Shown: positions 27,244 through 32,225 of the stretch, piece by piece
How positions within the stretch are numbered: the stretch's first letter is position 1
Layout of the letters: each line of letters begins with the position of its first letter
From: Oscillospiraceae bacterium
Lineage (GTDB): Bacteria > Bacillota > Clostridia > Oscillospirales > Oscillospiraceae
Assembly: GCA_015067885.1 (NCBI GenBank)
Contig: SVLO01000001.1
Coordinates: forward strand, 62,001-126,000
Direction: 5' to 3'
Length of the DNA stretch: 64,000 nt
The notes under the pieces: model-generated
The model's input: only the letters and a program-made list of their open reading frames with translations
Databases searched by the model: none
Told to the model about the DNA's origin: nothing
Translations under genes and position numbers: made by a program

Positions 27244-27933
27244 ATGTTTAGAGGCAAGAAGTATCAGGAGAGCGCCAAGCAGATCGACAAGGGCGCTCTG
27301 TATGAAGTTGCTGAGGCGATGGAGCTGGTCGTGAAGACCGCCCCCGCCAAGTTCGACGAGACTGTCGAGCTGCACGTGAAGCTGGGCGTTGACTCCCGTC
27401 ACGCCGATCAGCAGGTCCGTGGCGCCATCGTGCTGCCCCACGGTACCGGCAAGACCCAGCGCGTGCTGGTCTTTGCCAAGGGCGCCAAGGCTGACGAGGC
27501 CAAGGCTGCCGGCGCCGACTACGTCGGCGAGCTGGATCTGGTTGACAAGATCCAGAAGGAAAACTGGTTTGAGTTCGACGTGGTCGTTGCCACTCCCGAC
27601 ATGATGGGCGTGGTGGGCCGTCTGGGTAAGGTCCTGGGTCCCAAGGGTCTGATGCCCTCTCCCAAGGCCGGCACCGTGACCATGGACGTGACCAAGGCTG
27701 TCAACGAGATCAAGGCCGGTAAGGTGGAGTACCGTCTGGACAAGACCAACATCATCCACTGCCCCATCGGCAAGGTCTCCTTCGGCGCTGAGAAGCTGGC
27801 TGAGAACTTCAACGCTCTCATGGGCGCTATCATCAAGGCCAAGCCCGCCGCTGCCAAGGGTCAGTACGTCAAGAGCTGTACCGTGGTGTCCACCATGGGC
27901 CCCGGCATCAAGCTCAACGGCGCCAAGTTCTGA
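27244..27933 (+). CDS. rplA: Ribosomal protein L1
   Basis: A 229-residue protein of the mobile L1 stalk. Family marks are [40 protein letters not shown] and the signature [21 protein letters not shown]1 also represses its own operon by binding the rplK leader, for which a candidate site exists at 26744-26778. The usual rplJ-rplL pair does not follow; a strong terminator closes the operon, so those genes must be elsewhere. Confidence 0.97.
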
Positions 27934-27949
27934 TTTTTGCAATCAAAGA

Positions 27950-27986
27950 ACGGAGAAGCGTATATGCGCTTCTCCGTTTTCTTTTA
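27950..27986 (+). terminator. Rho-independent terminator after rplA
   Basis: An 11-bp perfect stem (ACGGAGAAGCG at 27950-27960, complement at 27967-27977), loop TATATG, then TTTCTTTT. Confidence 0.9.
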
Positions 27987-28025
27987 CTTGGATTTGTGGT
28001 TTCGTATTTCTTGATAGCGCCGTCA

Positions 28026-28140
28026 AAGGCTCCCCTGTGTAAGGGGAGCTGTCAGCCGGTAGGCTGACTGAGGGGTTGTTTCGGCTAAATCCAATCCCTC
28101 CGCCCCTTCGGGGCACCTCCCTTTACACAAGGGAGGCTTT
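28026..28140 (+). repeat. Palindromic intergenic repeat, family B, copy 2
   Basis: Same layout as 11342-11463: outer GGCTCCCCTGTGTAAGGGGAG and CACCTCCCTTTACACAAGGGAG arms, with inner hairpins GTCAGCC-GGTA-GGCTGAC (28051-28068) and GCCCC-TTC-GGGGC (28102-28114). The inner hairpin sequences differ from copy 1 while the geometry is kept. Confidence 0.6.
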
Positions 28141-28167
28141 TGCTGTGCCAAGTTACAAGTCTTTCGA

Positions 28168-28196
28168 TTTACATTTGATTGTAATTGTGGTACACT
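28168..28196 (+). promoter_or_regulatory. Promoter of the structured RNA
   Basis: TTTACA (28168-28173), 17-base spacer ending in TGG (extended -10), TACACT (28191-28196). Predicted start of transcription is near 28203. Confidence 0.65.
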
Positions 28197-28202
28197 ATTG
28201 TT

Positions 28203-28410
28203 GCCACACAATTTAATCAACAAACAAAGGGACTCTCTATTTTTTATATGGGGTAGTATATCCTTTTTTGCCTTGTCAAGAATGAATTTGGTAAAAATGC
28301 AAATTCCACTTGGCAAGCGAGGAGAGTATCCTACGTTGTTGAGAATTGTGTGGCAACAATAGGAGTTTGCATTTTTCGGGTGTGACTTCTATTGATGTCA
28401 CACCTTTTTT
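28203..28410 (+). ncRNA. Candidate structured RNA: free-standing (6S-like shape) or cis leader of the next gene
   Basis: The predicted ~208-nt transcript folds end to end. TTGTTGCCACACAATT (28198-28213) is exactly complementary to 28344-28359. Inside it lie CAAC/GTTG (28218-28221 with 28335-28338), GGACTCTC with GAGAGTaTCC (28230-28237 with 28322-28331), a large lopsided bulge, and an apical arm (28272-28279 with 28310-28317; GAATTTG/CAAATTC at 28284-28290 and 28300-28306). An 8-bp terminator hairpin (28379-28404) with six T follows. The closing stem, central bulge and apical arm recall 6S RNA, but no sequence match can be claimed. GTGTGGC of the closing stem could also pair with the terminator's GTCACAC, which would suit an attenuator for the lipoprotein gene. 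Confidence 0.55.
28379..28410 (+). terminator. Terminator ending the structured RNA
   Basis: GGTGTGAC (28379-28386) pairs with GTCACACC (28397-28404), followed by TTTTTT. It lies 27 bases before the lipoprotein start codon. Confidence 0.85.
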
Positions 28411-28437
28411 ATTTATCTAACGATGGAGGAAAGAAAA

Positions 28438-29304
28438 ATGAAAAGACTAACCACTATTTTCTGTACAATTGCCCTTTGCGTTTCATGTATGGCGCTGCAG
28501 GGCTGCGGGGCGGATAATGCTGGGGCCGGATTCGGAACAAAAAGAGCGTTGAAGGCAAGTGACCTTTCGATTGATGATTTTGCGTGGGAAACGGTTCAAA
28601 CAAAATACAATGGAAATGATTGCTATTCGTTTTCGTTAACAAACAATTCAGCGTATGACGTTATTGATGTTAAGGTCACATATAAAGTGAGGGATGATGT
28701 GGCTGATAGCGACTTGGAAGTTTATAATAAATTTATGAATGAGCATGAGGGGTACATCGAGGCAACTGATTCGCCAAGAGATGTGATTTTGAGAGGATTT
28801 AGGGATGTACTTGTGGCAAAAGGTGAGAAATTAACGAATTTGAGATTTATGATAGGATTCAAAAATTGGTCGTGGTACGATTACCCGACAGACGAACAAT
28901 TCGAACTTATGGGGCCTAAAGAAATACAATTAGGTGTAGTAGGAGAAGATGGGCTTCTCTATCTCGCTTACTATGATTTTGAAACTGATACATGGATGAT
29001 AGATGAAAATACCATACCGGTTGATACTTGGTCAGAAAAAGAAATTGCAAAGAAAATAAGTAGACCTGCTGAGGGACACCACGTTGTTACCACGGATGAA
29101 GACGATAGATTTGGATTCGTCTCTTATGGGGTCACTACTGACGATTACAGTCAATATGTTAAAAGCATCAAAGCGGTTGGATTTGCGGAAGATAATAGTA
29201 ATCCGTCCCATTTTGCAGGGAAGAGTGCTGACGGATATACGGTGAAGTTGTGGTATTATAGCGAAGACGAAAGGTTAAGTATTACCATAGAAAAGGAGTC
29301 GTAA
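28438..29304 (+). CDS. Secreted lipoprotein of unknown function, AT-rich
   Basis: A 288-residue protein with a lipoprotein signal: MKRL, a hydrophobic stretch and a lipobox-like ALQGC with cysteine at about residue 23. The mature part shows an FxxAM/DUF-like beta pattern (CYSFSLTNNSAYDVIDVKVTY near residue 63) resembling domains that hold a protein interaction surface, but no named family was recognised. GGAGGA precedes the ATG. Codon use is clearly richer in A and T than in the neighbours, suggesting recent acquisition. No promoter is visible between the upstream terminator and the gene, so its expression may depend on read-through of that terminator. Confidence 0.75.
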   Translation: MKRLTTIFCTIALCVSCMALQGCGADNAGAGFGTKRALKASDLSIDDFAWETVQTKYNGNDCYSFSLTNNSAYDVIDVKVTYKVRDDVADSDLEVYNKFMNEHEGYIEATDSPRDVILRGFRDVLVAKGEKLTNLRFMIGFKNWSWYDYPTDEQFELMGPKEIQLGVVGEDGLLYLAYYDFETDTWMIDENTIPVDTWSEKEIAKKISRPAEGHHVVTTDEDDRFGFVSYGVTTDDYSQYVKSIKAVGFAEDNSNPSHFAGKSADGYTVKLWYYSEDERLSITIEKES

Positions 29305-29455: not shown

Positions 29456-29596
29456 ACCTTATCAAGAGTGGTGGAGGGAACGGCCCGATGAAGCCCGGCA
29501 ACCTGCGTGCGCGCAAGGTGCCAAATCCGGCGGTAGTGTATCGAAAGATGAGGGTGCATCAAGTATGAACGCCCGCTGCTGCGAGCGTTTTTTTCG
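29456..29596 (+). promoter_or_regulatory. SAM-I (S-box) riboswitch with terminator, upstream of metK
   Basis: Conserved S-box sequence is visible: CTTATCAAGAG then GGTGGAGGGA, GGCCCGATGAAGCCCGGCAA and the 3' P1 strand GATGAG (29547-29552). An expression-platform terminator follows (AACGC-C-CGC / GCG-A-GCGTT at 29568-29589 plus T run). S-adenosylmethionine binding should favour the terminator and switch metK off. Confidence 0.93.
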
Positions 29597-31529: not shown

Positions 31530-31607
31530 CCGTTGGGGCGCTGACGGCAGTTGCGGCATAAGATGGATTGTGGCTTAGCCACAAGTAAAGACAAAGTGAG
31601 GCGTTAT

Positions 31608-32225
31608 ATGAAACGATATTGTGCTTCTGACCTGTCGGGAAACATGGGCTGTGACAGCTGGAATGGCTGTGGGCCGGTTTACCCCACGCCCTGTCCTCAG
31701 TCCTGCTGCTGCAACTGTCCCGCCGGGCCTCAAGGCCCTCAGGGACCTGCCGGACCCGTTGGCCCCGCCGGACCTACCGGTCCCCAAGGCCCTGTGGGTC
31801 CTGCCGGCCCACAGGGAGCCACCGGTCCCGCCGGCCCCATTGGGCCCCAGGGGCCTGCCGGCGCCACCGGTCCTGAGGGTCCCGCCGGTCCTGAGGGTCC
31901 CGCCGGTCCTGAGGGTCCCGCCGGTCCTGAGGGTCCCGCCGGTCCTGAGGGTCCCGCTGGTCCTGAGGGTCCCGCTGGTCCTGAGGGTCCCGCCGGTCCT
32001 GAGGGTCCCGCCGGTCCTGAGGGTCCTGCCGGTCCTGAGGGTCCTGCCGGTCCTGAGGGTCCCGCTGGTCCTGAGGGTCCTGCCGGTCCTCAGGGTCCTG
32101 CCGGTGTTGTGACTCCCGGCGCGGCGGTGGCGGACCTGCCGGCCACGGCTACGCTGGACGATGTGATCACCACCGTCAACGCACTGTTGGCCTCCCTGCG
32201 GGCGGCGGGCCTGCTGGAAAGCTGA
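31608..32225 (+). CDS. Collagen-like Gly-X-Y repeat protein
   Basis: A 205-residue protein. Residues 1-38 are Cys-rich with no signal peptide ([20 protein letters not shown]). About 42 Gly-X-Y triplets follow, ending in twelve consecutive GPEGPA units. The C-terminal ~35 residues ([20 protein letters not shown] onward) resemble the short caps found after collagen-like tracts in spore or phage-fibre-type proteins. In Clostridia such proteins are often exosporium or surface filaments; trimerisation into a triple helix is expected for this repeat. A GTGAGG site lies upstream. Between two terminators, so probably monocistronic. Confidence 0.85.
31869..32084 (+). repeat. Twelve tandem 18-bp repeats inside the collagen-like gene
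   Basis: Twelve copies of a GGTCCTGAGGGTCCYGCY unit that differ only at two silent third positions, followed by one variant (GPQGPA). The near identity implies recent expansion and likely length variation between strains. Confidence 0.95.

Follow-up and report, generated by a model that had tools for sequence, protein, structure and literature searches.

A family of folded leader RNAs in Clostridia with attenuator-like placement ahead of accessory genes

Introduction

EAR and put antitermination RNAs are structured, lie near the 5' end and could help RNA polymerase to pass a terminator. In the concept of mobile promoters, a regulatory module travels together with unrelated genes or in front of them. 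Terminating riboswitches and attenuator leaders lie between a promoter and its gene and combine mutually exclusive pairings with an intrinsic terminator and a close start codon. For the ornate RNAs ROOL and GOLLD, covarying contacts were shown to be between chains, according to PMC12286853.

We analyzed positions 28168-28437 of a 64,000-nucleotide stretch of DNA from an Oscillospiraceae bacterium (the whole stretch is hereafter called the window). The interval is placed between rplA and metK. A first-pass annotation had read it as a free-standing structured RNA or an attenuator ahead of a lipoprotein gene and had likened its shape to 6S RNA. We found that the interval is one copy of a large family of folded RNAs present in many Clostridia, which is apparently undescribed.

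Results

Organization and fold of the window locus

The features of the locus, with the evidence for each in brackets, are listed below.

28168-28196, plus strand: sigma-A type promoter (sequence)
28202-28378, plus strand: conserved RNA body, matched by covariance model R1 at 138.7 bits, a score given by construction because the window is among the 28 sequences from which R1 was built
28203-28214, plus strand: 5' strand of helix P1 (fold; covariation in 28 sequences)
28217-28238, plus strand: 5' side of the P2 region, two helices in the window fold (fold)
28239-28267, plus strand: one-sided 5' bulge or hinge, U-rich, with a small hairpin (folds)
28268-28280, plus strand: 5' strand of the P3 arm, whose 3' strand runs from 28309 (covariation)
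28284-28306, plus strand: apical hairpin P4, GAATTTG with CAAATTC around a 9-nt loop (fold, -4.1 kcal/mol)
28293-28307, plus strand: apical strand AAAAATGCAAATTCC, complementary to the tail and overlapping the P4 3' strand (pairing in alignment A2)
28343-28354, plus strand: 3' strand of P1 (fold; native versus swapped partners)
28362-28376, plus strand: 3' tail GGAGTTTGCATTTTT, able to pair with the apical strand (-17.2 kcal/mol for the duplex on its own)
28379-28410, plus strand: intrinsic terminator, hairpin GGTGTGAC/GTCACACC and U-run (sequence)
28438-29304, plus strand: downstream gene for a 288-aa lipoprotein with a C-terminal DUF6591 domain, PF20234 (sequence, Pfam)

The promoter comprised a -35 element TTTACA (28168-28173), a 17-nt spacer and an extended -10 element TGnTACACT with its hexamer at 28191-28196. 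The terminator hairpin occupied 28379-28404 and its U-run 28405-28410, and a gap of 27 nt separated the U-run from the lipoprotein ATG at 28438, with a Shine-Dalgarno sequence from 28425. The gene has no room for a promoter of its own, and the attenuator-like placement of the RNA was supported by the homologues described below. DUF6591 was assigned by Pfam at E 1.7e-9 (38.2 bits against a cut-off of 27.1). The G+C content was 0.59 in the window, 0.36 in the RNA and 0.40 in the lipoprotein gene.

The fold of 28168-28437 had an energy of -99.5 kcal/mol, compared with a mean of -56.7 kcal/mol for 200 shuffles, none of which was as good (z -8.74). The promoter, strong fold and terminator before a gene that the first-pass annotation had described were thus confirmed. 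Its 16-bp closing stem was also present and comprised 20 bp in our fold (28195-28214 with 28343-28362). However, the outer pairs probably lie upstream of the transcript, since the closing helix of homologues mostly starts 4-6 nt past the -10 hexamer (see below) and the R1 match begins at 28202.

Three other elements were observed nearby. A palindromic G+C-rich repeat, CTCCCCTGTGTAAGGGGAG ... CTCCCTTTACACAAGGGAG (28016-28145), lies directly upstream of the leader promoter; an ordinary SAM riboswitch (29456-29554, 84 bits) precedes metK; and an open frame with collagen-like repeats spans 31551-32225.

Homologues and their distribution

A DNA search of 60 genomes revealed matches in four, namely the window's own genome, two genomes from other families and G007, which had a 29-base match. 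The homologues show two mutually complementary conserved motifs, apical AAAAATGCAAATTCC and tail GGAGTTTGC[AG]TTTTT. A pattern of both motifs spaced 40-70 nt apart matched at least 120 stretches of genome contigs and three viral contigs that were identical in the sequence listed; the record titles among the matches listed were those of Clostridia and relatives, many from animal guts. Carriers whose records bear no MAG label include Pumilibacter intestinalis CLA-AA-M10 (locus L084) and Lachnospiraceae bacterium MD329 (locus L092). Among 50,697 phage and 72,556 plasmid records, none matched the window sequence itself.

Within the window's order, R1 detected the family in 88 of 295 genomes (E 0.01, at which about 3 genomes are expected by chance), and within the class in 68 of 341 (E 1e-4), with some overlap between the two sets. 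In the phylum draw (299 genomes) and in the genus (41 genomes), the window's own genome gave the only match. The presence of the family is therefore patchy. Because only 7 to 9 candidates were scored per genome in the order, class and phylum searches, these counts are lower bounds that miss copies and perhaps genomes. With 150 candidates scored, three genomes chosen for their many matches contained 6, 9 and 12 copies. The window's genome contained two; the second (L002, G000:C5:9631-9805, 134.3 bits) had no start at the usual distance, and a 55-aa frame was called 403 nt further on.

The family comprised two subclasses, a long form of about 180 nt and a short form of about 130 nt that R1 found at roughly 43-60 bits. 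We folded 59 weaker R1 matches, not all alike in size, as the short set. The short-form members listed mostly kept the order of P1, inner helix, apical hairpin with an A-run strand, tail and terminator, and L272, L273, L277 and L284 departed from it. The plan shared by the family consists of a promoter, a long hairpin made of covarying helices, a one-sided bulge, an apical hairpin, a conserved 3' tail and a terminator, usually with a gene start shortly downstream.

Searches with Rfam 15 above the gathering threshold gave no family match to the window RNA or to seven long-member loci, and at E up to 0.5 no match overlapped the RNAs of 15 short-member loci. We found no description of the leader motif in the literature surveyed, including passages of PMC8040213, PMC11109978 and PMC12286853; the supplementary lists of PMC8040213, with 3161 candidates, lay outside this search, and the family may thus be among them.

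Conservation of the structure

Upstream sequence was sufficient in 121 of the 129 pattern matches, of which 107 passed a closing-helix filter and 98 remained after dereplication; the window copy is outside these 98 long homologues because its helix extends further out. The 107 folds, made with the tail masked, contained P4, P3, the large one-sided 5' bulge and outer helices of varying number, and inner helices between P1 and the bulge were recurrent. The lopsided bulge and apical arm noted at first pass therefore recur in the family, and the bulge averaged 31 nt in the 98 long members. Across the family, a U-run often came after a short GGG/CCC hairpin in the bulge (GGGGATACTATACCCTTTTTT is one example); judging from its letters, this element looks like a weak pause or terminator within the RNA.

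In A2, an alignment of 28 sequences, 11 of the 15 P1 pairs had changed on both sides, with 93.1% of cells paired. All nine modelled P3 pairs had done so as well, giving 20 such pairs for P1 and P3 together; for P3, 73.9% of cells were paired, and the alignment misfits some arms. P4 was paired in 94.9% of cells and showed no compensatory change. The covariation score of the whole structure was 0.433, a value that none of 500 shuffles reached (0.150 in shuffles), and a shift of the structure by one column left at most 48.3% of cells paired, down from 88.0%, with the qualification that the structure scored had been chosen on A2 itself, which favours it. RNAalifold on a plain MAFFT alignment found the apical/tail pairing alone, and P1, P3 and P4 were therefore set by hand for R1.

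Upon comparison of native with swapped partners, P1 gave z -29 in 94 of the 98 long members and z -18 in 56 of the 59 short members; the permutation tests used here treat members as unrelated and ignore kinship. The P1 pairs included 38 G-U and one A-C in the 98 long members, and 22 G-U and no A-C in 57 of the 59 short members. This excess of G-U over A-C (60 to 1) indicated selection on the plus-strand RNA. Relatives lacking the paired strands, which the first-pass annotation had named as a refutation, were not what the homologues showed: the strands were kept by compensatory change.

The flanks of the RNA were also conserved. In the 98 long homologues, a -10 hexamer matching at least 4 of 6 positions was found in 98, a nearby TG in 87 and a -35 hexamer matching at least 4 of 6 in 75, compared with 76, 26 and 15, respectively, in a control stretch further upstream. 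The closing helix started 4-6 nt past the -10 hexamer in 83 of them. Past the tail, a hairpin and T-run were recognized in 94 of the 98 long members and in all 56 short members tested. The arm lengths traded off against each other (Spearman -0.46), which fits a fixed loop-to-tail distance but is weak evidence, because the scan pattern itself restricted the motif distance to 40-70.

Pairing of the apical strand with the tail

The apical/tail pairing was formed in 99.8% of A2 cells with no double changes, in a set of which most members had been picked by a pattern containing the two motifs. In the long members, the native pairing was hardly better than swapped pairings (z -1.5, p 0.04), since the motifs are near-invariant and pattern-selected. 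The long member L157 had lost one base on each side of the pairing.

The short form was more informative. Of its 59 matches, 56 had the right length and 53 of these a recognizable apical strand, which three lacked; 50 were unique. In these 50 the native duplexes averaged -15.3 kcal/mol against -12.7 kcal/mol for permuted ones (z -8.2, none of 20000 permutations), and the pairing thus covaries in the short subclass. One short member, L273, fails to pair (-2.3 kcal/mol). In a further set (A4) of 70 model matches over 155 nt, in which some captures are repeats and at least one match lies on the reverse strand, the strict pattern occurred in 42 and most of the other 28 kept a strong duplex.

Both P4 and the apical/tail pairing require the strand 28300-28306. 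Because the tail pairs with the P4 3' strand, the two are mutually exclusive, and strand exchange between P4 and the tail is likely. Conserved mutually exclusive pairings, a trait of transcription attenuators, are therefore present in the family.

The first-pass annotation had proposed exclusive folds of another kind, in which GTGTGGC of the closing stem pairs with GTCACAC of the terminator. The homologues strongly favour a different exclusive pairing, that of the 3' strand of the apical hairpin with the tail. The 7-bp pairing that the annotation had named can form in the window (the pieces tested gave 8 pairs and -11.7 kcal/mol) but is at best weakly conserved, as native partners were little better than swapped ones in 94 long (z -1.6, p 0.06) and 56 short members (z -1.7, p 0.04). 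The attenuator that it had offered as an alternative gains support in kind from the placement seen in homologues. When the terminator halves were compared with the P1, apical or tail strands, the best p values were 0.04 to 0.07, and no conserved antiterminator with clear covariation was found among these combinations.

Genes behind the RNA

The long set comprised 129 loci, including three near-identical viral ones. A gene start was called in 117 and none in 12, some of which lack sequence. The start lay within 75 nt of the GGAGTTTGC tail motif in 83 of the 117, counting one miscall at 4 nt; a limit of 130 nt raised the number to 98. In the short set, starts were called in 49 of 59 loci, the other 10 including some that lack sequence; 32 of the 49 were within 75 nt of the RNA end and 27 were at 40-61 nt. 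Five short-set starts at 0-1 nt, inside the terminator, are probably miscalls, and some called starts were hundreds of bases from the RNA. Most members, not all, thus carry a leader with a promoter and an intrinsic terminator close before a gene, as attenuators do.

We scanned 89 long-set proteins, selected by a start within 130 nt, a ribosome-site score and a length of at least 45 aa, with three loci omitted. BspA-type leucine-rich repeats were found in 14; the rest included three Listeria-Bacteroides repeats, three zinc ribbons, two EcoRI-type methyltransferases and two AMP-binding enzymes. No dominant function or ligand clue emerged from these 89 proteins. Defence was rejected as a theme, since PADLOC recognized only four families among them (type II methyltransferase in two proteins; two RT-protease models and one restriction enzyme in one each). 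In several genomes the RNA is followed by a gene for a small protein starting with MPDYK or MPDFEK (L166, L019, L016 and L174).

Peptide patterns confirmed no relatives of the lipoprotein in genome contigs. Within the window's order, 27 of the 197 genomes searched carried DUF6591 genes, and R1 matched 3 of 30 DUF6591 loci (the window's own, G139 and, partially, G228), a count that could miss other RNAs because the loci extend only 1500 bases past the domain. A DUF6591 gene with the leader RNA close by accordingly occurs in two other genomes.

Presence, absence and tandem copies

In G029, the relative that matched best over the metK leader, rplA is 97.7% identical and lies directly before that leader. 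G029 is devoid of the palindromic repeat, the leader RNA and the lipoprotein gene at rplA-metK, about 1.4 kb in all. In this single comparison the difference may reflect loss in G029 instead of gain elsewhere; among 29 other loci, rplA was in the compared flank of G029 only.

Seven tandem pairs were compared. In L208 (G579:C59), where RNA and gene are duplicated, the two promoters shared 91% identity and the gene starts were almost the same, while the RNA bodies were 61.6% identical, compared with a mean of 64.1% for unrelated members, and the terminators 45%. L209 (G521:C6) was the reverse, with identical RNA bodies and different downstream sequence, and in the other five pairs the picture was intermediate or the flanks differed too. 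We take the hypervariable RNA body between near-identical flanks in L208 as a lead only. The leader RNA and its gene seem to be acquired together, and the RNA is therefore probably a portable expression control of horizontally acquired single genes.

Discussion

On balance, we think that the interval is a cis-acting leader RNA outside Rfam 15, whose exclusive pairings would set readthrough into an accessory gene. The RNA is best read as a new, attenuator-like class that travels with accessory genes, and it is most likely a built-in switch for the genes behind it. RNA polymerase would start at about 28202 and make the long hairpin. P4 would fold first, and the emerging tail could then strip the P4 3' strand by strand exchange, such that the winning pairing would set the share of polymerases that stop at the terminator or read into the accessory gene. 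A signal, whether a small molecule, a protein, an RNA polymerase factor or a partner RNA, could bias this choice.

Two other readings were weighed, each of which we consider unlikely. In one, the RNA is a stable trans-acting molecule of about 200 nt, either an sRNA or a scaffold, whose 3' end is set by the terminator, and the gene behind it is expressed through passive leak. Promoter-like sequence and a terminator across the family, the strong fold of the window RNA and the near-invariance of both motifs in the long A2 members are consistent with such a molecule. However, gene starts cluster just past the terminator, many different genes lie behind the RNA, and the three genomes counted in depth carry 6, 9 and 12 copies, all of which argue against it.

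The second reading, about as improbable, is that the apical/tail pairing joins two molecules into a homo-oligomer, as in ROOL and GOLLD, and is not an intramolecular pseudoknot. Loop and tail are far apart on the rod-like fold, and the long copies share similar apical and tail motifs and could therefore pair with each other; the inter-chain contacts described in PMC12286853 offer a precedent. However, the one-sided hinge would also permit folding back.

It is very improbable that the hairpin acts as DNA, whether as a palindromic mobile repeat or as a recombination site like attC. Such an element would go with sporadic presence, single accessory genes, tandem units and the presence or absence at rplA-metK, but the P1 bias of 60 G-U to one A-C points to selection on plus-strand RNA, conserved promoter-like sequence and a terminator flank the RNA, and the window sequence lacked phage or plasmid matches. 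An integron attC hairpin selected as single-stranded DNA was ruled out by the same bias. Least probable of all is an RNA polymerase-binding RNA of the 6S kind, whether 6S itself or a divergent relative: the likeness drawn at first pass holds in outline (about 200 nt, a long closing stem, an asymmetric bulge), but the 6S model (RF00013) had no match in the window at the gathering threshold and none in 27930-28450 at E up to 10, and the leader differs in being placed in cis and in having several copies that precede different genes. The genome carries its 6S gene elsewhere, at G000:C22:17206-17403 (63.9 bits against a cut-off of 46.4).

If the cis-acting reading is true, the family is an orphan switch class with a testable prediction, strand exchange between P4 and the tail, and a handle on the control of newly acquired genes in these bacteria. 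In practical terms, the motif can serve annotation as a signpost for the starts of many accessory genes, most of them uncharacterized. A wider picture, more speculative and less probable than either of the two unlikely readings above, is a portable cassette of Clostridia in which promoter, RNA switch and terminator move with single accessory genes. In it, the body would be replaceable between near-identical flanks, and copies would pair via their shared motifs, co-regulating acquired genes without a dedicated protein regulator.

Comparison with known systems places the leader closest to terminating riboswitches and attenuator leaders, with which it shares the position between promoter and gene, the exclusive pairings, the intrinsic terminator and the close start codon. 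It differs from them in that no conserved antiterminator was found, its accessory genes have no common function and Rfam 15 gave no match. Comparison with EAR and put RNAs was confined to the Rfam scans. The leader recalls ROOL, GOLLD and OLE in that a loop and a distant strand covary as pairing partners (PMC12286853), but the leader RNA is much smaller, is followed by a terminator and lies directly upstream of a gene. In contrast to mobile promoters, the module described here is mostly a structured RNA.
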